Positions 10,545-63,998 of a stretch of DNA of 64,000 nucleotides are shown here, one piece after another. Both the position numbers and the translations under genes were made by a program. How positions within the stretch are numbered: position 1 is the first letter of the stretch; the number at the start of each line of letters is the position of its first letter. Source of the stretch: a virus. The notes beneath the pieces were generated by a model. The model searched no databases and was not told the origin of the DNA. It was given only the letters and a program-made list of their open reading frames with translations. The DNA is taken from positions 182,148 to 246,147 of the IMG/VR virus record IMGVR_UViG_3300042922_000542; one strand, 5' to 3'.

Positions 10545-12698
10545 TTAAAACATATTAATTTGATCAAAAAATGATGGTGGTATATCAACTGAGTCATCAA
10601 ATATATTATTGCTGTTAGGACGATTGGAATAGATAGGATCATAGATATTACTATTAACGGCTACTGCATATTTTTGCATTTGTTCCATTTCAATTGTGGT
10701 ACTTATTACAATCTCCTCAAACGTTACATTATCTGATGAGAAAAATTCTATATTACCACCAGATTTAATTTCTACATTCTGTTCATAATTCGGTTCTAAT
10801 GCCCCATAAATAGGATGGTCGGTTTTTCTAATACCAAAAAATTCTAAATTATCTCCGGTATAATAAACATAAATTGCATGATTATATGACATTACACAGT
10901 CATCATGTTCACCCTTAGCTGCTTGGATTTTACCAGTTGATGTTCTAATCAGTTTACACATATCATCGACTAAATATTCAGTATTAAGAATTTGCTTGCA
11001 TTCCTTAATGTGATTAAATAATAATTCAAACATAGCATCACGAACTTTTTTCGATGTATATGTACCATATTTCTTATATTGTTGCGATAATTTCTTTAAT
11101 TCATAATCACTTTCAGATTCATTTGCCATATCTTCCAATTGCTGTAATGAATCGGACCAGTATAAATTATCTTTAATTGAGCTTTCACAGATGGCGTGGA
11201 TTAAATATATACCCATGCTATTACGCTCAGGTATCAATACACCCTTTGGAATATAGTTAATTATAAGATCTATTAATACACGTAATAACTCAGTCCCACT
11301 TATATATGGTGATTTAAATTCTGCAGCAATTTGTAAGTTGTAAGGATTAACTATAGTTATAGATGTATTATCACCGCCACCACCGCCAGAAGGATCCACA
11401 CCTATTAAATACGGAATATTGGAATCCAATAATAATTTTGTATTTTGTTCATGCGGATATGTCAACATACGCCATTTCTTATTAAGTATGATGTCTGTAG
11501 TTGATTTCTGCATATGTGATATTAGGAATTCAAGATCTTCAGGTTCTATTGGTGAATCTGTAGATCCTCTTAGACGTTGCATTAATATTTCACGTCTAAT
11601 TGCCATTTTATCACCAGACAAATTATATTGCTCTTCAACCCACTTATGTGTTTTTCTAAGTTGCCAATACTGATATTCGATATAGAATATTCTTGTAACT
11701 TCTCTACTCTTATCGGTTGTGTCATCTTGATGATATTCATCGCGATATGCACTGATGTAATCTTCAATTTCTGCATCACTCATATCATATATTCGCTCAG
11801 TCCATGGAACCATTGATTTTATAATTGGTGCAGCAGTAGCACCTTCTCTTGTATCAAGATTACCAGGCGTTGTTGTGAAGATTCTACCATAAGGACGTCC
11901 TGCAATGGCAGCATTCTCAGATGCGGTTTTAAATGCAGGAGCAGAGTTGGATAATAATACATCAAAATATGGAGTATGTTCGATCTCGTCAAAATATACT
12001 ATGGACATAGAGTCACCACGGGCCATACCTTGGGCATGGGACATACTCGTGGGTTTTGGATGCATAACAATACGATTACCTCTGACTTTATTTTCAAGTA
12101 TTTCTGTTGCTTGTCGTGTCTTTTTAGTTTTACCGTCATTATCAATGAATCGTTTAAACTGTAACCATTCAGGAAGAACATCAATATCATTCTTTAAGTC
12201 TCTTAGGTTCTTCTTAGTGTTATCTGTGTCCTTACCAAAGAAATTGATATTAGCATTTTGAGATGCCAACTGAAAACACCATGATACGATAGTCGAAATA
12301 CTACCAGTTGTTTTATATGTCTGACGAGGTTCGCATAAACATGAGTCAAATCTTTTCGCAAAGCACCATATCAATGCGGCTAATCCACGATGTAAACAAA
12401 AGTCGACAGTACCCTTATCTGATTGAATCCTAGCAACGGTTCTTGCATAAAACCAAATATTTGATTGCAATTCACGCATTAGAATTTCTATTTCATGTCG
12501 TGTTATATTCTTTTTAAAAGGATCTATATCGCATACACCGGAATTAGGATATTTCACTTCCAACATAAAATAATAATTTTTTATACCGAGTGCTTTTAAT
12601 TCCATGGCGGTTTGCATAAAACTTTCATTTTTTGGTGAAAAGTCATAATATTTATATTCGCCTGTATGCGGATCCATAATTCTTTTGATATCAGCCAT
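10545..12698 (-). CDS. Terminase large subunit (TerL), ATPase plus nuclease
   Basis: 717 aa, the DNA-packaging motor. ATPase domain: Walker A-like PRQTYKTT (residues 124-131, catalytic lysine K129) preceded by the adenine-side region; Walker B IVYFDEIEH with D237 and catalytic E238; motif III-like GRIFTTTPGN. An RNase H-fold nuclease domain follows, with acidic clusters YLIGVDPSGGGGGDN (start about 430), VLIPERNSMG and KGEHDDCVMSYNHA, supplying the metal-binding aspartates. The nuclease cuts concatemeric DNA and the ATPase translocates it through the portal (46232-48505). A truncated paralog with destroyed Walker motifs is encoded at 38152-39126. RBS AAAGGAGTAATATT. Confidence 0.93.
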   Translation of the reverse strand: MADIKRIMDPHTGEYKYYDFSPKNESFMQTAMELKALGIKNYYFMLEVKYPNSGVCDIDPFKKNITRHEIEILMRELQSNIWFYARTVARIQSDKGTVDFCLHRGLAALIWCFAKRFDSCLCEPRQTYKTTGSISTIVSWCFQLASQNANINFFGKDTDNTKKNLRDLKNDIDVLPEWLQFKRFIDNDGKTKKTRQATEILENKVRGNRIVMHPKPTSMSHAQGMARGDSMSIVYFDEIEHTPYFDVLLSNSAPAFKTASENAAIAGRPYGRIFTTTPGNLDTREGATAAPIIKSMVPWTERIYDMSDAEIEDYISAYRDEYHQDDTTDKSREVTRIFYIEYQYWQLRKTHKWVEEQYNLSGDKMAIRREILMQRLRGSTDSPIEPEDLEFLISHMQKSTTDIILNKKWRMLTYPHEQNTKLLLDSNIPYLIGVDPSGGGGGDNTSITIVNPYNLQIAAEFKSPYISGTELLRVLIDLIINYIPKGVLIPERNSMGIYLIHAICESSIKDNLYWSDSLQQLEDMANESESDYELKKLSQQYKKYGTYTSKKVRDAMFELLFNHIKECKQILNTEYLVDDMCKLIRTSTGKIQAAKGEHDDCVMSYNHAIYVYYTGDNLEFFGIRKTDHPIYGALEPNYEQNVEIKSGGNIEFFSSDNVTFEEIVISTTIEMEQMQKYAVAVNSNIYDPIYSNRPNSNNIFDDSVDIPPSFFDQINMF

Positions 12699-25329: not shown

Positions 25330-26430
25330 CTATCTAGAATAGCGTATACCAGCAGTCGAAGAACTAGCTACCCACATCCCATTATCATAACAACAATATA
25401 CAAAATTACCAGTTGTTATATTACTTTGTGTCCATGTCATACCATCTATAGAGTAATACAATCCTACAGAACTACCCGCAATCCATATACCATTTGCATA
25501 TGTACAATATGGAAAACTATTAGTGGTAATATTACTTTGTATCCAAGTCATACCATCGGTAGAATAATAAATACCCCTACCAGCATAACCACCTGCAATC
25601 CATATACCATTACTACCATAACAACTCATAAATCCACCGGTGGTTATATTACTCGGAGTCCATGTTATGCCATCTGTAGAATATCTCATACCAGAACCAT
25701 TGACACTAGCAAGCATATATATATTATTGTAATATGATACCGCCGCCCAATTAAGACTTGTGATGTTACCTCGAGCCCAAGTAATCCCATCAGTGGAATA
25801 CCATACACCATTATTAGAAGAAGCTACATTGCTAGCAGCAGCAACCCATTTTCCGTCTCCATAACAACAATCATTAAAATTACCAGTTTTGATATTACTC
25901 TGAGTCCAAGTTATACCATCAGTAGAATAATAAATACCCTTACCGTTAGTATCCATAACACCACTATGACCGATTGTAACCCAAACACCATTTGCATATT
26001 GAGCCCAAATAAACCTACCTGTCGTTACATTACTCTGAGTCCAATTTATACCGTCAGTTGAATAAAAGAGTCCGGTGCTAGCAGCACAAGCAACCCATAT
26101 ATTATTTGCATAATAACAATAAGCCATACTCGCGGTTGCTCCGTTACACATGTACCAGGTCTCTCCATCCGTTGAGTAACGTAAGCCACCAGTGCCCGTA
26201 TAACCACAGGAAACCCACACACCAGTACCATAACGACAATTTCTAAAATATCCAGTAGTTAAATTAGATTGATTCCAAATCATACCCGGTATCATTTGTC
26301 CGTGTACCCTTCTGTTTATACCAGCATCAGCTGTATATATTTCATATACATTCCTATTTACACCAACATCCATAATATGGTGACTTATTATTTTTTTATT
26401 AATTCCATCGATTGATTTATATATAGCCAT
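25330..26430 (-). CDS. Tail fibre/receptor-binding-like protein with eight propeller-type repeats
   Basis: 366 aa. After an N-terminal segment (about 1-50) with paired GVNR/GINR motifs typical of phage tail proteins, there are eight imperfect repeats of about 35-45 residues, each built as YSTDGITWTQSNITTGNF then a variable CYANGIWVA strand pair. This is the pattern of BNR/Asp-box-like beta-propeller blades. Repeat-based beta-propellers at phage tips or fibres usually bind glycans or other host surface molecules. Its N-terminus has a paralog at 1-73. A run of eight G residues occupies the ribosome-binding position. Fibre identity is inferred from architecture; the repeats themselves are certain. 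Confidence 0.7.
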   Translation of the reverse strand: MAIYKSIDGINKKIISHHIMDVGVNRNVYEIYTADAGINRRVHGQMIPGMIWNQSNLTTGYFRNCRYGTGVWVSCGYTGTGGLRYSTDGETWYMCNGATASMAYCYYANNIWVACAASTGLFYSTDGINWTQSNVTTGRFIWAQYANGVWVTIGHSGVMDTNGKGIYYSTDGITWTQSNIKTGNFNDCCYGDGKWVAAASNVASSNNGVWYSTDGITWARGNITSLNWAAVSYYNNIYMLASVNGSGMRYSTDGITWTPSNITTGGFMSCYGSNGIWIAGGYAGRGIYYSTDGMTWIQSNITTNSFPYCTYANGIWIAGSSVGLYYSIDGMTWTQSNITTGNFVYCCYDNGMWVASSSTAGIRYSR

Positions 26431-28832: not shown

Positions 28833-31800
28833 ATGTATATTAATTTAAAAATAAATAATTCAGCTGAAGCATCAATAAAAGACTCTCAATGGAAAAATCC
28901 AGGAGCCAGTTTATATGATAAATTATTAGATTCATTTTACTATCCAAGTGATGATGTTGATGATCCTAAAAATCTATACCCATCACATTATTTAAAGGAA
29001 GCATATTTAATAGCCCCAATTAATAAAATTAAAAATAGTCCATATGGTAGAACCCCTTACTCTAGGAGTGGATGTAAATACCCCCATCACAATATTAGGA
29101 ATAATGAATTAGTTCTTGATATAAATGGTGTGAAGGCTGCATATGTAAGGGCCAGACAAATGGGAATATTCAAAGGTGACGTAAAAGAACATCTAATGGG
29201 ACACATTGAGGAATTAAATCTTATGGAAGTATTACATATCAAAAATGATGATATTATAGAGGAAAATTTTAATTTTATTGAATCTCATTTGTATATATCT
29301 GAATCAGTAAACAACCCTAATACTGGGGATACTAAAAAATTTTATGAAATTTTTAATATGCTAAATGGTGTTCATTATGGAATGTATAATACAAAGCTTA
29401 AAAAAGTTTTGTATTCTGAGATAATTGATGATGAAATAAATTTATTAGATTATTTAGATCAGCATGGTGATTCAGAATTTATTATCATGAAACCAGATGA
29501 TGTAATTAAATATAAGGCTGGAACTTGTTGGGATACATCATTATTCATATATGCTAAATTAATTGAAAACGGATTTAATCCACAAGTGGTATTCTACGTT
29601 ATTAATGATAATAATCACATAATTACACATTCAACTATAGTTGTTGAAGATTCGAATCGAGTAAAGTATAATATTGAATATAGTCATAGTGTTAGACGCG
29701 GTATTCATCAAATTGATAAAATAGAAGATGTATACGGCAATGAAGATGATATCATCTTTGTCAATAATAATGTTGACGTTACTAAATTATTGAAGAAGAA
29801 TGAAATTAAACCAGATGATTTTATCAAGGCTACAGAATGGAATCCAAATAAATCTATAGTTGAGTCTACCACATATTATGATTTCTTTAATGAAACATCT
29901 CACGGATTACTTAAATCATCATTTAGGTATGGTGTTAACATAGAAAATGGGCATAGAATAAAAATTGTATTTGATCTTGATGTTGCTAATATTAAATTCA
30001 CCGGACATGACTTTGGTGGAGATGCAACAAATAAGACATACGACGCTAATAAAAATATTTCTAAAAAAGGAAATAATGATTTTGTATCGATTGGAACTGT
30101 GAAAGCTATTATAGATGAAGATACTAATGAACGTTTACAATCTGTAAAAATAGTAGGTTCATTAAATAAATATATGATGAACATTGGACCTTTTATTGAA
30201 CCAGAGGGTGGACCGGTATGGAATATTGCTAAAGAAGAAAGAGCTAAAGAATCATTTGAATTAAACTCACTGCGTCTAAGAGAAATGATGGTAAAATCTA
30301 AAAATTGGAATCCACCATCAAATATCGTTAATAGCTATAAGGTCGGTCAGAAAGAAGATGATCCGACATATAAGGCTACAAGACCTGCGGCAAATATTTT
30401 CGATCTGGCATCCAATATAAATTCACATGTTAGATCTCCTCGTTTTAATGCCAAAGGGGTTCCAGATGATACCAAGACAATTAAAAGAAAAATCCATAGT
30501 ACCTATAATGAGTTTAAAATTATTTATAATGCAGCGTTTAATATTGCTAAAAAAAATAATGATGTTGAAGCTGGTGAGCAATTGAAGAAGTTATTGGATA
30601 CATTTGGAAGTAATGTTAAAAATGGTGTGAAATACATTTCATCAAATGAAGTTAATTCAGCATTAGATATACAAAATGAATTAATTAATATTAAAAGTGA
30701 AGCTAGAAAAATTCTCGATTCATTAAAATCTAAATATAAAACTGAAAGTGCATCTGAAATTATGATGAAAGATAATTTTGCTTTTATTGAATCATTTGTA
30801 TATTCTGCGCAATCAATACAAGAAGATACATCTATAAATGAGTCATATGTATTTTCACAAGATAATCTAGAAATTGATTTAGATCAGTGGTCGGCAACAC
30901 ACGGTAAAAATTTATTATTTATTACTGGTCAGGCAGGCTCAGGTAAATCAACTCTAGCTAGAAGTATGGCTAAACAGCATCATGCCGTATGGTTCGGACT
31001 TGACTTTTTTGAACAAACTGATCCTACATTAAAAAATATCAGCGAGTGGAATAAAAAATATGATGACGGAGATATTGAATTTCAATGTGTACCATTTATG
31101 TTAGAATACTATAAGGTCAGACCTGAATTGTTAACAAACTGGAATACCATAGTGAAAGATGAAGTTAAATTTCATCACGAATTTCTTCTATTTTTGAGAT
31201 GGTTAATTAATCGATTATATAAAATTAATCAACTATTTATTATTGAGGGCGTGCAATTAGCATTTTATGTTGACTATGCAGAATATGAAAAATATCCATT
31301 AATAATAATGGGGTCATCCATGTTAAAATCAACAGTTAGAAGAATAAAAAGAGCTGAAGAAAAGCATGGTATTAAAAGTGCTATTCGCAATTTGATGTTA
31401 TCATTTAAGAGAAATAAAATGTTTATTGATGATGAAAAAGTGTTAGATGATTTAAGAGATTCGGCTAATGCATCTAAAACTATGACTGCCGATGATAAAT
31501 CTATGCAAAAGATTATAATATCAAAAGGGACATATTTGCAGAGGCTTACTACAAGCAAAAATGAAAGTAATGATGAACGCCACATATATGTATCTCAGAC
31601 GAAAATGGATAATGATAAATATTTAGTTGAATGGGGTAACCGAGGATACAGAGTAACTTTAGAAGTTACAAATGATATCATTATGCCAATATATAAAGAA
31701 CGTTTTTCTGCATTTATGAGAGCTATAGAGGGAGCAGACGTTGATAGGGTAGCAAACGATATTTCAAATTTAAAGTATAGAAATAATGGTGAAAAATTTT

Positions 31801-32648
31801 TAAACGAATGGAAGAATAGAAATACCAAAGAGGTTAGTAAAGAGAGTTATATATCTTTTATATCATCTTTAACAAGTTCTGATTATAACAGACAAATATT
31901 TTTTAAAGAACTTAAATTGCGCGGATATAATGCCACAATAGATGATAATGATGCTGCCGAATGGACGGATAAACCAATAATTATTTTTGAAAGAAATAAA
32001 AATATCAAACAAACTGAGTGCATCAAAATTGATAGCGCGATGATAGATGACGCTAAAGAAAGGTTGTCAAAAGAAAAAAATATGGGTATTATGGAACATG
32101 CTATATATGAAGAAGTAAATATCGAAAGGGATGAAAAGATAGAAGTCGAAAAGGAAGTAACCGATGAACCTAAAGAAGAATCCCTACCCAAACAAACTGA
32201 TGCTAAAGAAGCTAATAAAAACGGCGTTAAACGTAAGGAATTATATATGAAATTTATTGAATATGCAAAATCAATAAATTCAAATAATCTATTTGGTAGC
32301 GTATTCGATAAAGATGCATTCAATATATATTCATTTGTACCACATGAAATGCGATATTTCTATAGGTTATCGAATCCATTATTATGTGTATTAAAAGATT
32401 CATTAGCATTCTTTGCATTATCGGAATTGAAAAAGATAAATAAGGATAATAAAAATATCAATACATTATTAATATTCGCCGCAGATAAGTCTAATAAAGT
32501 TATTGTATTTAATAATAATGATAAAGCAATTTATGAAGGCGCACAAAAGAATAATGAAATAATAGAATTAAATAAAATTGCGAACTCATTTGATAAGTAC
32601 ATAGAGAATTTAATTGGTATAACCATTCTCGAAGAATCCTTTTTATAA
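28833..32648 (+). CDS. Large multidomain protein: transglutaminase-like domain plus P-loop kinase-like domain
   Basis: 1271 aa. Region A, 1-150, unknown. Region B contains a transglutaminase/cysteine-protease-like core: AGTCWDTSLF (C232), THST (H266), then YNIEYS (E282), in the spacing of the 'GTCWDQ...THTF...E.S' family. Region C has a perfect P-loop GQAGSGKST (699-707, K705) followed by AVWFGLDFFEQ and a basic lid-like region (KSTVRRIKRAEEKHG), as in kinases of the zeta-toxin/shikimate-kinase type. The three regions are separated by two similar linkers, NFNFIESHLYISES (about 145-158) and NFAFIESFVYSAQS (about 648-661), both with prohead-protease-type sites. It may be a packaged, cleavable multi-effector protein. 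Ribosome site GGAAGGTGGAATAAT. Confidence 0.7.
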   Translation: MYINLKINNSAEASIKDSQWKNPGASLYDKLLDSFYYPSDDVDDPKNLYPSHYLKEAYLIAPINKIKNSPYGRTPYSRSGCKYPHHNIRNNELVLDINGVKAAYVRARQMGIFKGDVKEHLMGHIEELNLMEVLHIKNDDIIEENFNFIESHLYISESVNNPNTGDTKKFYEIFNMLNGVHYGMYNTKLKKVLYSEIIDDEINLLDYLDQHGDSEFIIMKPDDVIKYKAGTCWDTSLFIYAKLIENGFNPQVVFYVINDNNHIITHSTIVVEDSNRVKYNIEYSHSVRRGIHQIDKIEDVYGNEDDIIFVNNNVDVTKLLKKNEIKPDDFIKATEWNPNKSIVESTTYYDFFNETSHGLLKSSFRYGVNIENGHRIKIVFDLDVANIKFTGHDFGGDATNKTYDANKNISKKGNNDFVSIGTVKAIIDEDTNERLQSVKIVGSLNKYMMNIGPFIEPEGGPVWNIAKEERAKESFELNSLRLREMMVKSKNWNPPSNIVNSYKVGQKEDDPTYKATRPAANIFDLASNINSHVRSPRFNAKGVPDDTKTIKRKIHSTYNEFKIIYNAAFNIAKKNNDVEAGEQLKKLLDTFGSNVKNGVKYISSNEVNSALDIQNELINIKSEARKILDSLKSKYKTESASEIMMKDNFAFIESFVYSAQSIQEDTSINESYVFSQDNLEIDLDQWSATHGKNLLFITGQAGSGKSTLARSMAKQHHAVWFGLDFFEQTDPTLKNISEWNKKYDDGDIEFQCVPFMLEYYKVRPELLTNWNTIVKDEVKFHHEFLLFLRWLINRLYKINQLFIIEGVQLAFYVDYAEYEKYPLIIMGSSMLKSTVRRIKRAEEKHGIKSAIRNLMLSFKRNKMFIDDEKVLDDLRDSANASKTMTADDKSMQKIIISKGTYLQRLTTSKNESNDERHIYVSQTKMDNDKYLVEWGNRGYRVTLEVTNDIIMPIYKERFSAFMRAIEGADVDRVANDISNLKYRNNGEKFLNEWKNRNTKEVSKESYISFISSLTSSDYNRQIFFKELKLRGYNATIDDNDAAEWTDKPIIIFERNKNIKQTECIKIDSAMIDDAKERLSKEKNMGIMEHAIYEEVNIERDEKIEVEKEVTDEPKEESLPKQTDAKEANKNGVKRKELYMKFIEYAKSINSNNLFGSVFDKDAFNIYSFVPHEMRYFYRLSNPLLCVLKDSLAFFALSELKKINKDNKNINTLLIFAADKSNKVIVFNNNDKAIYEGAQKNNEIIELNKIANSFDKYIENLIGITILEESFL

Positions 32649-38151: not shown

Positions 38152-39126
38152 ATGAAAAAAATTTATCAAATGAATACAGAAAATAAAAGCTTCTTAGATT
38201 TTTCATTATTGTTAAAAGAAGAAGGTATAAAAAATCATTTATTCATGTTGGAATTAAAAAATGAAAATCTATTATACATTGATCCATGGGATGGTTATAA
38301 AACAGAACAACAACAGCAACAAATCATTGATGAAGCATGCAATAATTTCTGGTATTTCGCTAGGGAAGTTATTAAATGGCGAGATTTAGATGGTTCATTG
38401 TATCATACTAAATTAGATAGAGGCAATTGCGCAATGTATTTTAATAGCTTAAACAATATTAGTACATGGAGATCGAACATTAGACAAACTTATTCTAGTA
38501 TAAGCGTAATTACATTTCTAATATGGCGTTGGTTATCAGGGTATTATACTGATATGGATGCTATAACAAGAGATATATCAGCATCAAAGCAGTTGAAGAC
38601 GGTGGTATCAAATATCATTAATAGTCTACCAGAATATTTTAATATTAAAAAACATGAATCATATAAATATTTTGGCATCATTGATAATGATAAAAATAAG
38701 ATACACTTTAATAGTTCTCGAGTTATAATTAAAAATGGATCAAATATTGATTCGGATATTGCATTTTTTGACGGTGGTGAATTTATACCAAATTTAAAAT
38801 CACTAATTGAAAATAGGAATCTTAATACACGTGAAATTAATAATACCAAATTCACTATAGTTAACTCTGTAATTGGCGATGACAAAGCACCATCTAGTCT
38901 ATTTGCGGAGGGATATATAGATTCAATGTTAAAATGGAAGGACACATTTTATGATACGGATATATCTATAAATAATGTGATAATCAATAATTATCACAAT
39001 AGGTCTGTATACATATGCCACCCTTACAATCTCCTTGGATTTAGTGAAGAATGGTTTAAAAATTATAGTAACATGATTGACGATGAAAATATAATTAGGC
39101 GTGAATTGTTGGCACAAAGAAGATAA
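38152..39126 (+). CDS. Truncated terminase-like protein with inactivated ATPase motifs (pseudo-TerL)
   Basis: 324 aa. It aligns with the N-terminal ATPase domain of the window's own TerL (10545-12698) along its whole length: NKSFLDFSLLLKEEGIKNHLFMLELK matches NESFMQTAMELKALGIKNYYFMLEVK; NFWYFAREVIKWRDLDG matches IWFYARTVARIQSDKG; and its last residues RRELLAQRR end where TerL has RREILMQRLRGS, exactly before the nuclease domain. But the Walker A lysine is replaced (RQTYSS, S115, against RQTYKT) and Walker B reads FFDGGE (D207-G208) instead of FDEIE, so ATP hydrolysis is not expected. It has a good ribosome site (AAGGAGTAATTAAAT). It is an intact gene, not decay, so a regulatory or structural role is likely. 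Confidence 0.8.
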   Translation: MKKIYQMNTENKSFLDFSLLLKEEGIKNHLFMLELKNENLLYIDPWDGYKTEQQQQQIIDEACNNFWYFAREVIKWRDLDGSLYHTKLDRGNCAMYFNSLNNISTWRSNIRQTYSSISVITFLIWRWLSGYYTDMDAITRDISASKQLKTVVSNIINSLPEYFNIKKHESYKYFGIIDNDKNKIHFNSSRVIIKNGSNIDSDIAFFDGGEFIPNLKSLIENRNLNTREINNTKFTIVNSVIGDDKAPSSLFAEGYIDSMLKWKDTFYDTDISINNVIINNYHNRSVYICHPYNLLGFSEEWFKNYSNMIDDENIIRRELLAQRR

Positions 39127-39714: not shown

Positions 39715-40530
39715 TTATTTTGTTTCTTCAGCTGCTTCAACTTCTTCTTTAGTAGGCAGCTCAACCTCTTTAACATCTTCTCTCTTAGTATCAACTACGA
39801 GAATATATCCGAAGCCATCTGCACCTTTTGCTTTTTTACCATAAAAATCAGGCAATGTTAATCCACACTTAATTGCATTAAATGTTAAATCCCCAATTTG
39901 ATCTGCAAATTTTTGTTTGTAATGTTCAATTGCTTCAGCTGTTTCATTTTCATGACAGAAGAAAACTCCACACATTTGCCATACGACTGGATTTATTTTA
40001 GAAATTCCTGTCCATTTTCTCTGAATGCCTTTACCGGAGCTACCAACATAAGCTCTAGCATAGATATATGATAAAACTGAAATAGGTTTTAATGAATATT
40101 TATTATCCTTGGCACCATTATCAATAATGTCTTTGATTTTCGCAACAGCATCCTTAATTTTTTCTTTATTTTCTTTAGTTGCAGATTCATAATATGGACC
40201 GCTGCAATATGATTCCATTATTGCAGATTCCGTAAATCTCATCTGTTTGTCTTCAACAGTTTCAGCAACTGGGCGTACTGTCTTTAATGTATCAAAAGCT
40301 TCATTAAAACTTTTCTTAATGTCATCAATAGCCTTATTGTAAACATCTTCTGAAATTTCTGTTTTAGCAGGTACATTGATTGATACATCCAGTCCAAAAT
40401 TTTCCTTTAATTCTGGATTACCGCTTGACAAGTTCTCTTTTGTTTCAGGTATAGTAGATTCTAATATATTAATAGAAAATATATCGTCAGTCATACCATC
40501 TTGGTTTAAATTAACATTATTATTACTCAT
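39715..40530 (-). CDS. Probable virion protein (271 aa)
   Basis: Not recognised. It contains several prohead-protease-type sites, NILESTI, RFTESAIMES and YYESATKE, in the first 130 residues. The middle is a globular alpha/beta domain (LKPISVLSYIYARAYVG, NPVVWQMCGVFFCHENETAEAIEHYKQKF, AIKCGLTLPDFYG). The C-terminus is acidic with EVEAAEETK. Ribosome site AAAAGGAGTCTATAATT. First of the minus-strand block of baseplate/neck-like genes is upstream of it. Structural role inferred from maturation-like sites and neighbours. Confidence 0.6.
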   Translation of the reverse strand: MSNNNVNLNQDGMTDDIFSINILESTIPETKENLSSGNPELKENFGLDVSINVPAKTEISEDVYNKAIDDIKKSFNEAFDTLKTVRPVAETVEDKQMRFTESAIMESYCSGPYYESATKENKEKIKDAVAKIKDIIDNGAKDNKYSLKPISVLSYIYARAYVGSSGKGIQRKWTGISKINPVVWQMCGVFFCHENETAEAIEHYKQKFADQIGDLTFNAIKCGLTLPDFYGKKAKGADGFGYILVVDTKREDVKEVELPTKEEVEAAEETK

Positions 40531-41966: not shown

Positions 41967-43151
41967 TTATACCACTTTTTTCCCGGGACTAGGGTCCAAT
42001 ATACCGTGAATTATACTATATATTGTAGTTTTAGCTTTAATTGCCCAAGCTCTATCATCAATATATTGCTTAGTAAATTCAATAACTTCAGCAGACATCG
42101 TTTGAAATACTGTAGTTAACTTTGTAACAGCGGAGATATATCTAGCATATAATTCAGCATTATCATTAATTTTAGCTAAAGCTTCTTCTTCCATATATTC
42201 TTTATCTTCACCAGGTCGAATCTGATAGTAGTCATGTGATAAATAATATTCAATCGTGATATTATTGTGTTTCATATAATCAATCCCGATTGTTCCCTTT
42301 ACTATCTTTTTTCGAGCCGCTTCAATTTCTGTAATTAATGCATTAATATTATTTATAACCTTATTAGCATTATCAGGGTCAATACGAATTATATCTATAA
42401 ATTTATAATCTATATTTATTGGATCGGTCTGACTTCCACCATTCTTACTCCATAATGTTTTTCTGAATTTATCCAGGTAGTTAGAAAAATCATGAACTGT
42501 TTCCGGCGCATCAATGATTACATGATCCTTAATTAATTCATCTAATATAGGTACTAACCTTTGACCAGCAGCATCCATCTTTCCCGTTAAACGTTCAATA
42601 TTTTGTTGTAATTTATCTATCTCCTTATTCTTAGCACTAATATTGTGGAAGTGTTCATCTTTTAGTATTTGTTTAAAACGTTCAGATTCTCTTAATTCTG
42701 AGAGAGCCTTCCTTAACTTTCCATTCACCTCTACCATGTCTTCAAAATGTTCTTCACGCACTTTTTCCAATAATGCTAACAGTGAATCATGTTCTATCTG
42801 CAATGTTTTAATTTGTTCATTTTGTTGATTTGTAAATACATTTATTATATTATGCCAGAATGTTTTTAATGATAATACAATACGTTTCCACATAGCAGCA
42901 ATTTTATCAACAAGATTTTTTTTACGAGTTTCTATTTTACTTTTAAATACTGACATATTGGTTGATTCATTCATATTAGTTAATAATAAATCATCAGTGC
43001 TACATATATTAGCACACCTATGCATATAATCTAAAGACGTAATTTCAAATTCTAGACATTCTCTTTGTAACTGATAATTGCTATCACTATGCTCAAATGC
43101 TAATGACTCTTTAATGTAATCTCCTAGAGATAACATTGATACATTTTCCAT
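41967..43151 (-). CDS. Virion-type protein with amphipathic helix and long coiled coil (394 aa)
   Basis: N-terminal leader (1-75) has a YIKES maturation-type site, then a basic tryptophan-rich helix MWKRIVLSLKTFWHNIINVF (about 87-106). A long coiled coil follows (QQNEQIKTLQIEHDSLLALLEKVREEH and FKQILKDEHFHNISAKNKEIDKLQQNIERL, about 110-200), then a C-terminal globular part. The leader-plus-amphipathic-helix layout is the same as in 44488-45462 and 62107-63543, suggesting one family of inner-head or ejected proteins. Ribosome site AATGGAGGCCCC. Function unknown. Confidence 0.6.
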   Translation of the reverse strand: MENVSMLSLGDYIKESLAFEHSDSNYQLQRECLEFEITSLDYMHRCANICSTDDLLLTNMNESTNMSVFKSKIETRKKNLVDKIAAMWKRIVLSLKTFWHNIINVFTNQQNEQIKTLQIEHDSLLALLEKVREEHFEDMVEVNGKLRKALSELRESERFKQILKDEHFHNISAKNKEIDKLQQNIERLTGKMDAAGQRLVPILDELIKDHVIIDAPETVHDFSNYLDKFRKTLWSKNGGSQTDPINIDYKFIDIIRIDPDNANKVINNINALITEIEAARKKIVKGTIGIDYMKHNNITIEYYLSHDYYQIRPGEDKEYMEEEALAKINDNAELYARYISAVTKLTTVFQTMSAEVIEFTKQYIDDRAWAIKAKTTIYSIIHGILDPSPGKKVV

Positions 43152-44487: not shown

Positions 44488-45462
44488 TTATTTCTTTAGT
44501 ATTCCTGCAAGTCCTACTATAACTTGCATTCTGTAGTTATTTACGGCAGTGTATAAAGCTATACAGTGCGCCATAGTTGAACTTGTATCTTCAAAGAATT
44601 TCTGACCTAACTCTGACATTTTACCTTTGTAATCTTTGTCAAGATTTAAGTTTTCAATTTTGAATCTATAAGCTTCAAGCTGTTTAATTAATTCATCAAT
44701 AGTTCCTGAATCAGCACTAACTACGATACCGCGTGTACGGCTTTCATTTATGTATCTTTCAAGAACCTTTTGAAGTGTTTCTACACCTTTTTCATTGTCT
44801 TCGGTTAAATTTTTAGCAACTTTATCGAAGAATTTATTGATATGTCTTTCAGCGATAGCCATGTTATAAGGTCCATCTGATGCTATAGTAGTTTGAATCT
44901 TTCTGTTAACAAGAGCTGCAGCTAATTTGTCTTTAATTGCATTATCATTCCACTTTAATATGTTGCTTGGCAACTTATGGAATCCTTCAACTTGTTTTTC
45001 AGAAATTGGAGCTCCAGATGTTTCAATAGCAGCTTCAACAACTTTCTTTATAGCTTCTTTGTCTGCATCAGTAACTTCATTTAAAGCAGTTAATTTTCTA
45101 ACAACATCTTCTGCCTTAGCTGATACATCTTTCATCTTCTTGCCTAAGTTCTTTAAGAATGAAATGAATCCATTCCATATCTTTAGTATCCATGCTTTCG
45201 CATCACCCATGAACTTTTTAGCTTTATCAGTATATTTAGATTCTAATAATGCAATAGCATCATTTCCTTGTGATTCAAATAAGAATCCTTCAGTTAAATA
45301 TGATGCTGATTCTGTAACTAATGTTGCATTTTCTGCAAGGAACTTCTGACTATCAATGTATCCCTCCATCAATGTTAATTCACTAGCTTCCTTCATGAAC
45401 TTATAATTTTCCTGACTGTGCTTAAATAACTCACACTCAACCATGAAATCTTTAATTGTCAT
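44488..45462 (-). CDS. Probable abundant inner-virion protein (324 aa)
   Basis: The N-terminal 75 residues contain several prohead-protease-type sites (LTLMEG, YLTEG, FLFES, ALLES), then a basic amphipathic, tryptophan-containing helix (AWILKIWNGFISFLKNLGKK, about 90-110), then helical sequence to the end. This leader-plus-amphipathic-helix plan is shared with 41967-43151 and 62107-63543. Its upstream leader is nearly identical to that of the major capsid gene, suggesting comparably strong late expression. It follows the portal block on the same strand. A head-internal protein that is cut during maturation and perhaps ejected is the best inference. Confidence 0.65.
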   Translation of the reverse strand: MTIKDFMVECELFKHSQENYKFMKEASELTLMEGYIDSQKFLAENATLVTESASYLTEGFLFESQGNDAIALLESKYTDKAKKFMGDAKAWILKIWNGFISFLKNLGKKMKDVSAKAEDVVRKLTALNEVTDADKEAIKKVVEAAIETSGAPISEKQVEGFHKLPSNILKWNDNAIKDKLAAALVNRKIQTTIASDGPYNMAIAERHINKFFDKVAKNLTEDNEKGVETLQKVLERYINESRTRGIVVSADSGTIDELIKQLEAYRFKIENLNLDKDYKGKMSELGQKFFEDTSSTMAHCIALYTAVNNYRMQVIVGLAGILKK

Positions 45463-58821: not shown

Positions 58822-59631
58822 TTAATATGCATAGAAATCCTGTTGGTCATCCAATCTAAGAGCGCATAAGTTAAACGGATTTATACGATTACCGTTCTTA
58901 TCAAACTTTAAACCTGCGCATCCAATATCAATGTTTATAAATTTTATATTCATAGATTGCCACGTTATAACTTCTGCACTATAATCTGATTTAATCGGTA
59001 ATTTACCATTCATAACTGGTGTATGCCCATGCACTATTATTTTACCGGCATAATTATCTCTCAATTTATTTAAATCAATATTGGCATCATATATAGGTTC
59101 CTTATTTTTATTAATACCTATTGTGCGGGCCCATGTAGATTGGTATAATAATAGATCTGGTCGGCAATTACTTGAAACAGTATTCGTTGGCATCGAATGA
59201 CATAACGTATATTCCACCCCATTAAGTTCAACTGACGCCTCAGCAATAAGGTCATTGAAAAATTCCCCAACTATCTTTTGTTCAAATATATCTATATGAT
59301 CTAATTCTTGAATTGTTTTATCCCCGCCATTATTTAACCATATTGATAGATGCGATGTTTTATTTTTAGGCATAGGCTTTTTATTAACGGCTGTTTCTAT
59401 TAATTCAAGTGAATCCATCATTAATAATTCATGATTACCGATTAACGTTGTGACATTACATTTAGATTTTAATTCAGTTATGTATTTAATGACACCCATA
59501 GAATCAGGTCCACGGTCGATATAATCCCCTAGAAATATTATATGATCTTCACTCTTTATGTCTAATTTATTAATCAATCTGATTAGTGTACTCAATTGAC
59601 CATGGATATCTCCTATTGCATATATCGCCAT
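58822..59631 (-). CDS. Serine/threonine (PPP-type) protein phosphatase
   Basis: 269 aa. Signature metal-binding motifs are in order: GDIHGQ (7-12), GDYIDRGPDS (35-44), GNHE (about 65-68), plus the two later histidines (CHSMPT, and VHGHTPV). This is the lambda phosphatase-type calcineurin-like fold used by phages, usually a small cytosolic two-metal enzyme that dephosphorylates proteins. A C-terminal VDINIDIGCAG segment corresponds to the last core strand. The kinase-like gene at 62107-63543 is in the same minus-strand block, so opposing phosphorylation is possible. Ribosome site AAGGGGGTCATTTT. Confidence 0.88.
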   Translation of the reverse strand: MAIYAIGDIHGQLSTLIRLINKLDIKSEDHIIFLGDYIDRGPDSMGVIKYITELKSKCNVTTLIGNHELLMMDSLELIETAVNKKPMPKNKTSHLSIWLNNGGDKTIQELDHIDIFEQKIVGEFFNDLIAEASVELNGVEYTLCHSMPTNTVSSNCRPDLLLYQSTWARTIGINKNKEPIYDANIDLNKLRDNYAGKIIVHGHTPVMNGKLPIKSDYSAEVITWQSMNIKFINIDIGCAGLKFDKNGNRINPFNLCALRLDDQQDFYAY

Positions 59632-60620: not shown

Positions 60621-60650
60621 AAATATGATGGGAATTAACCCATCATATTT
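60621..60650 (-). terminator. Terminator of the Mre11-like gene
   Basis: AAATATGATGGG pairs with CCCATCATATTT around AATTAA, overlapping the stop codon at 60643; on the minus strand ATTTTTTATA follows. Confidence 0.8.
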
Positions 60651-61782
60651 TTAATTCTTCATTAATTAAACTACTCAATTCTTCTATGGATATATCAACA
60701 TCGTAATTTTTATTTATGTATCTATGTATTTTATCTTCCAAACATAATGATGCATCCAATATAAAATCAAATTCAGTTTCAATTTCATCTTCTTTTATTA
60801 TAGCATTCAACGACGGTTCATTAAATATGCATGTTATTGATTTATCTTCAATTAATAGTGATTTTATATTTTCCTTAAATGAAGCGTCAATATTATTTGG
60901 GAATTTAAATTTCAATCGAATCTTACCAATTTTATTACCATTGAATATATCTTCATGCATCGATTTGATTTTATTTACTTCGCTAACAAGTTTATTCATA
61001 TCACTATATAATTCGGAATCTTCATCAAATGTATATGTTTTGTATAAATACGCTTCATTATTTTCAACAAAAGTAAATTTATTATCTTCAATTATACCAT
61101 AACCCTTGGCTTCCTCTTCACCAAATGAATTCCTAAATAAAGATCCGACATAATAACATTCATCATTCATATCACAATATGTATGATAATGACCAAATAA
61201 ACATATGTCTGATATTGATGATAATTCATTCGACTTAAATATCGGAACTTTTTTCTCCTTAGATGTTGAAGCATATTCAACGGGATTCACCATGGTCATA
61301 CCTTCGGCTATCACACCATGCCCAAATATATAATTATATCTTTTATCGGAATAAAGATAATCTTTATAATATTCAAATTTATCATCAACATATTCCTCAG
61401 GTAAATATAATACATTGATATTTGGATATATTTCTTCTTCAGTAACAGTAGTTATTAATTTAATATCAATTGATTTATTGGTAAAATGATAATTGAATAA
61501 ACGATATTGTTGCATTTCATGGCTTTCAGTCCCATATACAATTCTTATTTTTGTTTTTGATTTTTTACATAACCTGATAAGGTATGACATAACGTTTATA
61601 GCTAATGATGTGCAATCATCATTAACCTTAAACAACTTATCAAAATAATCACCTAATATTACAACTACATCTGTATGATTAAATACTAATTCTTTATCTA
61701 ATATATCTGTAATTATATTATACACATAATTCGTATCTTTTATGGATCCGATATGAATATCTGCAAAGTTCAAAATTCTCAT
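60643..61782 (-). CDS. Mre11/SbcD-like recombination nuclease (T4 gp47-type)
   Basis: 379 aa. Calcineurin-like metallophosphatase motifs in the Mre11/SbcD order: ADIHIG (7-12), GDYFDK (about 45-50), then GTESHE (about 84-89) in place of the canonical GNHD, GHGVIAEG, and the final GHYHTYC. Mn-dependent 3'-5' exonuclease/endonuclease activity with an SbcC-like ATPase partner would be expected; no partner is encoded in this window. The C-terminal half is helical and acidic, without recognisable domain. Ribosome site GGGGAGAGTGTTATAT. Confidence 0.82.
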   Translation of the reverse strand: MRILNFADIHIGSIKDTNYVYNIITDILDKELVFNHTDVVVILGDYFDKLFKVNDDCTSLAINVMSYLIRLCKKSKTKIRIVYGTESHEMQQYRLFNYHFTNKSIDIKLITTVTEEEIYPNINVLYLPEEYVDDKFEYYKDYLYSDKRYNYIFGHGVIAEGMTMVNPVEYASTSKEKKVPIFKSNELSSISDICLFGHYHTYCDMNDECYYVGSLFRNSFGEEEAKGYGIIEDNKFTFVENNEAYLYKTYTFDEDSELYSDMNKLVSEVNKIKSMHEDIFNGNKIGKIRLKFKFPNNIDASFKENIKSLLIEDKSITCIFNEPSLNAIIKEDEIETEFDFILDASLCLEDKIHRYINKNYDVDISIEELSSLINEELKI

Positions 61783-62106: not shown

Positions 62107-63543
62107 TTAATATACCTTAAAATTACCATAGTCGACAACTACCATTTTACCATTAATAAAACCAACATTGTCTTCATGCATATCAGCAGTTTGTAATCTT
62201 ATATTTTTATTCTTAAGTGATTTTTCTAATTGCTGTTCAAATTTTCTCATATCATCAAAATCAATATTACGTCGAATTGAAGCTTTTGGAACAATTACAT
62301 ATATACCGCTTTCTGAACTTTCATCTGTCGGTAATGCAAATTTATCAGCAACATCAATATCCTTAGATACAATATTTTTTATCTTTAGATCAAGTTTATT
62401 GTCAAATATACCTTTTCTGTTCCAAGCATATTTATAAACAAATTTATCCCGATCATTAGTTAAAACTGCAATACGGGTTGCTCCACTTGGTGCATCTGAA
62501 ACATCTCTGATCCATTTCTTCGTTTTACATGTTATTATGATAAAAGGTTTAACGATGCTATATGCTCGCATGGTATTTTTAATATCAGAATGTAATATGA
62601 TATGTTCTATTATATCACCGAGCATCTTTCGATCCCGTATTGCAGCTAATTCGAAGTTATCAAATGGATTTTGATATTTAAATGCTATGCATAAATCTAT
62701 ATCTCTTAATACAATATTAATCATATTAAGTGCTGTAGCTAATCCATTTAATATATCAGAAAAATATGGATCGATATTTGGATCATTTTCCATTTCTTTT
62801 ACTTCGGGCATATTTAAGATATTTACAATATGTTCAGTTAACTCATTAGCTTCAGGAAAAAATTCGGCAGTATCTATAGTAAAGTCATAAGAACCTTTAC
62901 GGAATATAGGTATTGTCCTACCAGTGTCACCTAATCTCAATCTTGCTGCTTGAATTAATCCAACATTATCAAATTTAGATTTGATTAATGGTACAACATA
63001 TCGATCAACGATCTTTTTATATTCAGCGATATTGATAATTAGACTACGATCTAATTCAATTATAGCCTCTCCGTTCGACATTTTTATAATGGTTCCAGGT
63101 CCACTGCTATTTACAGTATCTTTGATATCAAAACCATCTTTCGCCTTATTTGCAAAATCTTCAGCTTTCATATTTTTGTATTCAACAGGAATAGCACGTT
63201 TTCTAAAAGGCTTGCGTTCATGTTTAATACCAACTGAATCTAATGCACTTATGACTGTATTTTCGGTTTCTTCCATTTCCTTAATCTGTTTTTCTGCCTT
63301 AGGTTTAAATATATTTTTAATAGAATCACGGATTCGTTTAGCCAATTCAATGATCTTTTTAATTAACCATTTGATTCCTTTAGCTATACTATCGACTCCT
63401 TTACTTATATTTTTACCAATAGTTGATTCCTCAAGTAACATGAGTTCGGCGTCAATATAAGAGAAGTGCTCAGTTATTAAAGAATCATATTCTGTAGATA
63501 GGGATGACTCCTCTGCATCCCTTAAATAAAATTTGTAGCACAC
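62107..63543 (-). CDS. Virion-type protein ending in a kinase-like catalytic core (478 aa)
   Basis: The N-terminal leader (1-45) contains the maturation-like site LLEES, then a basic amphipathic helix KGIKWLIKKIIELAKRIRDS (about 52-71), the layout of 44488-45462 and 41967-43151. The C-terminal 110 residues resemble the end of a protein-kinase/aminoglycoside-phosphotransferase fold. A lysine (K371, FVYKYA) follows two short strands, then DMHEDN (D454, N459) in the spacing of the catalytic DxHxxN loop, then VVDYG (D471) in place of DFG, and the protein ends seven residues later. A helical C-lobe after the DFG is absent. Start is a GTG at 63543 with a weak ribosome site, inside the previous gene. 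Activity cannot be judged from sequence. Confidence 0.65.
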   Translation of the reverse strand: MCYKFYLRDAEESSLSTEYDSLITEHFSYIDAELMLLEESTIGKNISKGVDSIAKGIKWLIKKIIELAKRIRDSIKNIFKPKAEKQIKEMEETENTVISALDSVGIKHERKPFRKRAIPVEYKNMKAEDFANKAKDGFDIKDTVNSSGPGTIIKMSNGEAIIELDRSLIINIAEYKKIVDRYVVPLIKSKFDNVGLIQAARLRLGDTGRTIPIFRKGSYDFTIDTAEFFPEANELTEHIVNILNMPEVKEMENDPNIDPYFSDILNGLATALNMINIVLRDIDLCIAFKYQNPFDNFELAAIRDRKMLGDIIEHIILHSDIKNTMRAYSIVKPFIIITCKTKKWIRDVSDAPSGATRIAVLTNDRDKFVYKYAWNRKGIFDNKLDLKIKNIVSKDIDVADKFALPTDESSESGIYVIVPKASIRRNIDFDDMRKFEQQLEKSLKNKNIRLQTADMHEDNVGFINGKMVVVDYGNFKVY

Positions 63544-63998
63544 TCTGTCAATGTTGATTCATTAATAACAATGCCTTTCCCTAAACGAAGTCTTGTTGTA
63601 TATTCATTCAGTGATGCACCTTTTTGTCTAAACATATCATCAAACTGATTCAATGTAGATTCTCTTATTGCTAATCCAATAGTTTCATCTTGGGATCCAA
63701 CATCTTGTGAATTTTTCATAGACCATTCTGATATATAATCCATTGCAACTTTAAAACTGGAGGATTCAGTTTTAATATTAAAGGACATATCACTCTCATC
63801 CTTCTTATCTTTTAACAACTCAGAAATATCAGCAACAATTTTATTTACAGTTTTCTTCTTTAATTTTTCAATAAAATCTTCATATTCAACGTCTTTCTTA
63901 ACATCAATAAGCTGATTTTCCATATCATCATCTTGATCAGAAATCGGTTCAGGTGGGACATCTAAACCATCATCAGCATCTTCTTTTAATTTTTCCAT
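63522..63998 (-). CDS. Probable virion protein (158 aa, possibly N-terminally truncated by the window edge)
   Basis: An open frame reaches the right end of the window; the ATG at 63998 has no visible ribosome site, so the real start may lie beyond. Acidic N-terminal half (LKEDADDGLDVPPEPISD) and C-terminal part with prohead-protease-type sites AIRESTL and VINESTL. It overlaps the 62107-63543 gene by 22 bases in another frame, so the two are coupled, or a frameshift links them. Family unknown. Confidence 0.5.
   Translation of the reverse strand: MEKLKEDADDGLDVPPEPISDQDDDMENQLIDVKKDVEYEDFIEKLKKKTVNKIVADISELLKDKKDESDMSFNIKTESSSFKVAMDYISEWSMKNSQDVGSQDETIGLAIRESTLNQFDDMFRQKGASLNEYTTRLRLGKGIVINESTLTECATNFI

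Follow-up and report, generated by a model that had tools for sequence, protein, structure and literature searches.

The 478-aa protein encoded at 62107-63543 (minus strand) of the window, by which we mean the whole 64-kb stretch of viral DNA analysed here, ends in a kinase core and not in a complete canonical kinase domain. Its N-terminus is of a phage head type and a PPP-type phosphatase is encoded nearby, and we lean, if only slightly, towards a minimal phosphotransferase that would be delivered from the head and opposed by that phosphatase. The kinase-like gene has a GTG start and an intact reading frame, and K371, DMHEDN (residues 454-459), VVDYG (D471) and the end at residue 478 all lie where the original prediction had placed them. 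No convincing ribosome-binding site is found upstream of the GTG and the start codon is therefore uncertain; the nearest in-frame ATG after it is codon 35, and RNA folding at the gene start gave nothing (z -0.54). The upstream gene (63522-63998, minus strand), for which a family search gave no family, continues up to the record end; at its stop it shares 22 bases with the start of the kinase-like gene.

The window is the final 64 kb of a virus record (G000) of 246,147 bases, whose terminase is 26-31% identical to those of phiKZ- and PBS1-type jumbo phages and 50-63% identical to those of several uncultured relatives. A virus-type RNA polymerase beta subunit, a major head protein and a tail sheath are also encoded in the window. 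Among its other genes, a 324-aa protein (38152-39126, plus strand) resembles the N-terminal part of the phage's large terminase (10545-12698) and is possibly a truncated terminase paralogue, while a 1271-aa protein (28833-32648, plus strand) has a P-loop in mid-protein (ITGQAGSGKSTLA) and possibly represents a P-loop kinase or ATPase within a large multidomain protein. A 366-aa protein (25330-26430, minus strand) made of repeats of the form W-x-Q/P-S-N-I-T-T-G...Y-Y-S-T-D-G is a beta-propeller-like candidate for tail or adhesion functions.

The kinase-like core and its phage family

Residues 342-478 (62110-62520, minus strand) match phrog_4301, a family without an assigned function (E=3.7e-9, profile positions 44-168 of 225), and all 23 rows of the family alignment match the profile as well. 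The kinase superfamily features found in this core, all read from the minus strand, begin with an equivalent of the glycine loop, G354-A-T-R357 (62473-62484; Gly in 22 of 23 family members, Arg in 23 of 23), and of the beta3 lysine, K371 (62431-62433; Lys in 22 of 23, and in 7/7 paralogues). They continue with an acidic residue in alphaC (62389-62391; Glu/Asp in 22 of 23), which is Asp (D385) here and which the family has as Glu in 20/23 and as Asp in 2/23, the catalytic loop D454-M-H-E-D-N459 (62167-62184; Asp in 20/23, Asn in 21/23) and the metal-binding D471-Y-G473, preceded by V-V (62125-62133; Asp in 23/23, Gly in 22/23). The protein stops five residues past DYG, and the helical C-lobe and activation segment are absent.

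The pattern D.H..N followed after 8-16 residues by D[YFL]G, which was chosen post hoc, occurs in one of the 61 open reading frames of the window; of 200,000 shuffled versions of the 478-aa protein, 35 contain it. Conservation within the family is a stronger test of the predicted kinase-like core than this motif count. The columns at kinase positions are the most conserved ones across the 23 aligned phage proteins, and those invariant in 14 phage members are G, R, V, K, P, F, N, E, G, N, D and G. Many members have the Ser/Thr-kinase form of the loop, D-x-K-P-x-N...D-Y-G, with Lys where the window protein has His; the jumbo relatives have D-x-H-x-x-N.

The typical phrog_4301 member is a standalone protein of ~118 aa, found in T4-like, N4-like, jumbo and haloarchaeal phages. 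Such standalone versions occur in Seuratvirus Skure, Dhakavirus JS10, the N4-like phiG17, Asteriusvirus UB, jumbo phages (several from Aeromonas, others OBP-like or Miami-like) and HATV-2, a virus of haloarchaea; a few members (Kc263, SNUABM_5) have kinase names in their deposited annotation. The window protein shares with them the domain as defined by the profile, the conserved residues and an end within a few residues of D-x-G, whereas most members lack its leader, basic helix and middle region. In most alignment rows the C-terminus lies 0-27 residues past D-x-G, the L058 and OBP rows having been cut by segment choice, and OBP-type proteins have a longer, non-kinase tail. Because most members end just past D-x-G, the missing C-lobe is a property of the family and not the mark of a broken gene.

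The whole 478-aa protein, used as a single-sequence query against the PDB, phage records and viral contigs, gave no real relative. Its PDB matches to DegP (residues 124-182, E 0.04-0.3) look like chance, while matches to Escherichia phage Skure and HATV-2 at E 1-4 resembled noise but were shown to be real by phrog_4301. A scan of the genome contigs with the standalone family gave no matches, and the closest isolated phiKZ/PBS1-type phages tested had no match either. In phage JS10 (L036 2983-4360) the standalone gene is followed two bases on by rnlB, encoding RNA ligase 2, and HATV-2 (L003 1979-3334) encodes adjacent kinase-core proteins, gp108 and gp109, the latter with the loop D-V-I-P-K-N and then D-Y-A. 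The virus itself has a second, more divergent kinase-like protein of ~286 aa outside the window (G000:C1:164545-165405, plus strand; L211:1246-2106; profile E=8.7e-8), in which GPGTNRYAFK, YAIKF, KEF and LDFAY precede a zinc-ribbon-like stretch, C-x2-C...C-x2-C; its homologue in a related record (G002) is fused into a 927-codon frame.

Comparison of the family profile with all PDB sequences returned 26 matches, all of them protein kinases (TTK/MPS1, KSR2, MAP3K8) and all in register from the lysine strand to D-F-G (positions 19-124 of 128). Each of these matches is weak singly (E 0.17-0.7), and it is their unanimity that constitutes the evidence. The AlphaFold2 model of residues 342-478 (pLDDT 79, pTM 0.70) consists of a kinase N-lobe with catalytic and metal loops. 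In core-model numbering, strand 3 (27-32) contains K371 and the alphaC helix (35-52) contains D385; two short strands flank the catalytic loop, and DYG follows the last strand. The top 50 Foldseek matches of this model in the PDB are all kinase-fold proteins. With VIA-align the best match is the ATP-bound ArkI RNA kinase (Z 10.1, rmsd 2.5 A, 114 aligned residues that span all key positions), followed by Kae1-Bud32 at Z 9.9 and by ePKs, APH(2'') and Rio at 8.4-9.6, near-ties given Z differences under 1. Matches in BFVD comprise many uncharacterised small phage proteins together with named viral kinases. With a pLDDT of 52 the full-length model is poor, but kinases again rank first for its kinase part.

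Homology and a kinase-like fold for the core thus have computational support. The kinase-type core without a helical C-lobe that had been proposed is upheld by family conservation, the PDB profile matches, the AlphaFold2 model, Foldseek and VIA-align, and structure prediction with structural comparison to kinases, the check suggested for it, gave a kinase-like and not a different fold. The alternative that the D, H, N, D and K residues are arranged by chance in a protein of some other fold is very improbable: the motif alone is short and single PDB profile matches have E >0.1, but the residues are conserved in 23 diverse phage proteins, the PDB matches are to kinases only and in register, and the fold matches are likewise to kinases only.

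The head-type N-terminus

The protein as a whole is laid out as a head-type leader, a basic helix, a helical middle region and the C-terminal kinase-like core. The leader (residues 1-38; 63430-63543, minus strand) ends at an invariant Glu38 within Leu-Leu-Glu, a putative prohead-protease site. It is followed by a long basic amphipathic helix (residues 44-103; 63235-63414, minus strand) that is seen with low confidence in the full-length AlphaFold2 model, residues 44-90 containing 14 K/R against 5 D/E. The middle region (residues 104-341; 62521-63234, minus strand) is mostly helical in a low-confidence model (pLDDT mostly <60).

By profile search, this architecture is found in seven proteins from four virus records, of which G002, G010 and G012 have two apiece and this virus has one; L056, L058, L060 and L022 are among these homologues. 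A leader of ~40 residues, an invariant Glu in [LIF]-x-E, the basic amphipathic helix, the helical middle and the core are common to 7/7, and N145, I169, N266, D295, I302, L308 and Y328 of the middle region are conserved in all seven. The relatives have these genes within or close to the head/portal block. The G002 record encodes an S77 prohead protease of the T4 type, and this virus encodes a 61% identical homologue of it (G000:171198-172085); a PF03420 search of G000 gave no direct match, and the protease was reached via the G002 homologue. The claim of a virion-type N-terminus is therefore supported by the leader, invariant Glu and basic helix in 7/7, by the head/portal setting in relatives and by the T4-type prohead protease.

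These sequence features suggest that the leader is probably cleaved after Leu-Leu-Glu38 by the prohead protease. The [LIF]-x-E of the paralogues differs from the S/A/G-x-E of phiKZ-type cleavage sites and is nearer to the T4-type prohead-protease motif. By analogy with proteins of SPN3US and phiKZ and with T4 Alt, processing in the head and ejection of the kinase-like protein are plausible (PMC5694885, PMC5512222). Two other window proteins of the head/portal block (41967-43151 and 44488-45462, minus strand) have a leader and a basic helix but unrelated C-termini, which suggests one targeting module with exchangeable cargo.

The linked phosphatase and the proposed mechanism

The PPP-type phosphatase announced for 58822-59631 (minus strand) was recovered as a 269-aa protein with the motifs GDIHG, GDYIDRG, GNHE and HGHTP, and matches Pfam Metallophos (PF00149) at E=4.5e-18 and phrog_246 at E=5.6e-34; ApaH and protein-phosphatase models match it equally well, both below cut-off, and a protein and a dinucleoside tetraphosphate are both candidate substrates. 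In this virus the phosphatase and kinase-like genes are ~2.5 kb apart on the minus strand, within 58.8-63.5 kb, and in two relatives phosphatase homologues lie between kinase-like genes as their direct neighbours (L056:2921-3646, L060:7541-8272). The order in G010 is phrog_21946 protein, kinase, PPP phosphatase, kinase and a homologue of window gene 39715-40530; G012 has the same order with a 98-aa gene added between phosphatase and second kinase. Both cassettes lie on one strand within the head-gene block, flanked by the same pair of genes, and the corresponding slot in this virus is empty. An SbcD/gp47-like metallophosphoesterase gene (60643-61782, minus strand) occupies the interval that separates the kinase-like gene from the PPP phosphatase in the window; its homologues in G002, G010 and G012, 56-58% identical, are several kb from the kinase cassette.

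No PPP phosphatase match was found in G002, and both of its kinase-like copies are degenerate, one reading D-I-K-A-D-A (Asn lost) and the other R-C-N-S-G-G (Asp and Asn lost), whereas D-x-H-x-x-N is intact in each of the five copies from the three genomes that encode the phosphatase. The absence of the phosphatase thus goes with degenerate kinase loops, a suggestive correlation that comes from four related records, some of them fragmentary, and is not statistical. Kinase-phosphatase linkage was looked for outside this virus group, including in the phages with standalone domains, and none was found.

The same loops bear on whether the protein is instead a pseudokinase, in which the core has a kinase-like fold and may bind nucleotide but would serve the head protein in a structural or binding role, with no phosphate transfer. 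The absent C-lobe and the head-type signals are consistent with such a role, as is the loss of the catalytic Asp or Asn in several homologues (L022 and L058, which have the same architecture, OBP and Miami), from which catalysis would appear not to be universal in the family. The window copy and 5/7 paralogues, however, keep Lys, Asp, Asn and metal Asp, the same 5/7 keeping D-x-H-x-x-N, the catalytic Asp is present in 20/23 family members, and the degenerate paralogues sit in the genome without a detected phosphatase. For the window copy we lean towards a kinase, and the pseudokinase reading seems somewhat unlikely.

In the mechanism that we favour, the kinase-like core would be carried on a jumbo-phage head protein from which the prohead protease would remove the leader at Leu-Leu-Glu38, and the remaining basic helix would hold the protein in the capsid or on DNA until ejection. 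Once in the host, ATP-Mg would be bound through K371, N459 and D471, D454 would transfer phosphate onto a host or phage protein, and the linked PPP phosphatase, the next gene in related viruses, would reverse or limit the phosphorylation. In its most specific form, that of a head-ejected, active kinase of ~130 residues that lacks a C-lobe, or for which the N-terminal helical region stands in, and that is opposed by a co-inherited PPP phosphatase, the proposal is possible but tentative. Because there is no C-lobe, the canonical peptide-binding site and the alphaF anchor are absent, which counts against an active kinase, and the kinase-phosphatase link comes from few related viruses, which counts against the explanation preferred here, as do the catalytic residues lost in some homologues, the poor full-length model and the missing match in the closest isolated phiKZ/PBS1-type phages tested.

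Alternatively, the protein could phosphorylate RNA (e.g. tRNA) or a small molecule and not a protein, in the manner of ArkI; this we consider improbable. ArkI with ATP is the best structural match (Z 10.1), with Bud32, Rio and APH(2'') close, but Z differences under 1 are ties and do not single it out. The adjacency of a standalone member to rnlB in phage JS10 and the basic N-terminal helix would suit an RNA substrate, but the rnlB linkage is found in one lineage, and PPP enzymes are not known to erase 2'-phosphates. Although ArkI is itself reduced yet active (PMC9095486), its activity-relevant basic C-lobe is absent in the window core.

The description of phrog_4301 as a kinase core without a C-lobe provides a testable hypothesis for T4-like, N4-like, jumbo and haloarchaeal phages. 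If active, the core would test the minimum size of a kinase, which structure takes over from the substrate-binding lobe and whether kinases enter the cell together with phage DNA. Should the favoured mechanism be true, the cassette of two kinases and a phosphatase would be a delivered, reversible signalling module, and the virus would deliver a reversible phosphorylation switch based on an enzyme that is among the smallest of the kinase fold.

Comparison with known systems

Loss of the C-lobe is an already described theme among the polyvalent-protein kinases (PF18762, Iyer et al. 2017), which have lost the whole C-terminal subdomain and kept the active site (PMC5512222). These Kinase-PolyVal proteins resemble the window core in having a kinase-type active site without that subdomain and in the existence of standalone versions; they belong to mobile elements and are thought to be delivered with DNA (PMC5512222), and members from Bacteroidota end shortly past the metal-binding Asp. 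The window core scores 14.5 bits (E=0.037) against PF18762, below the curated cut-off of 27 bits, and a scan of G000 with this model gave no match above cut-off. With hhalign the window family and PF18762 are collinear over 110 columns with a score of 27.9 and a probability of only 16%; 100 column shuffles all scored <=16.3, an earlier set of 60 having included one unexplained 132. The comparison was meaningless with just four PF18762 members and became collinear but weak with more. The signature Glu that precedes strand 2 and the signature Gln of the final N-lobe strand, named as distinguishing by the authors of PF18762 and present in its Bacteroidota members, are absent in the window family, which has G-A-T-R and V-I-V-P against G-A-E-Q and x-Q-P. 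Because these two signature residues are missing, the window core is set apart as a separate family, of the same kind as Kinase-PolyVal and perhaps distantly akin to it. The host architecture also differs in its jumbo-phage head leader.

The archaeal tRNA kinase ArkI (PDB 8yv5, 8yv4), the best structural match over 114 residues, is likewise a reduced kinase, active without subdomains VIII and X and with HGQ for HRD (PMC9095486); a further likeness is that its phosphate is later taken off by a separate eraser enzyme. Unlike the window core, it keeps a small, basic C-lobe important for activity (PMC9095486), has HGQ in the loop against D-x-H and is a cellular tRNA-modifying enzyme. For the N-terminal part of the protein, the closest likeness is to the ejected head proteins of phiKZ/SPN3US type and to T4 Alt, which share an N-terminal propeptide ending at Glu, maturation by the prohead protease and the carriage of enzymes in the head (PMC5694885), and T4 Alt is both packaged and injected (PMC5512222).
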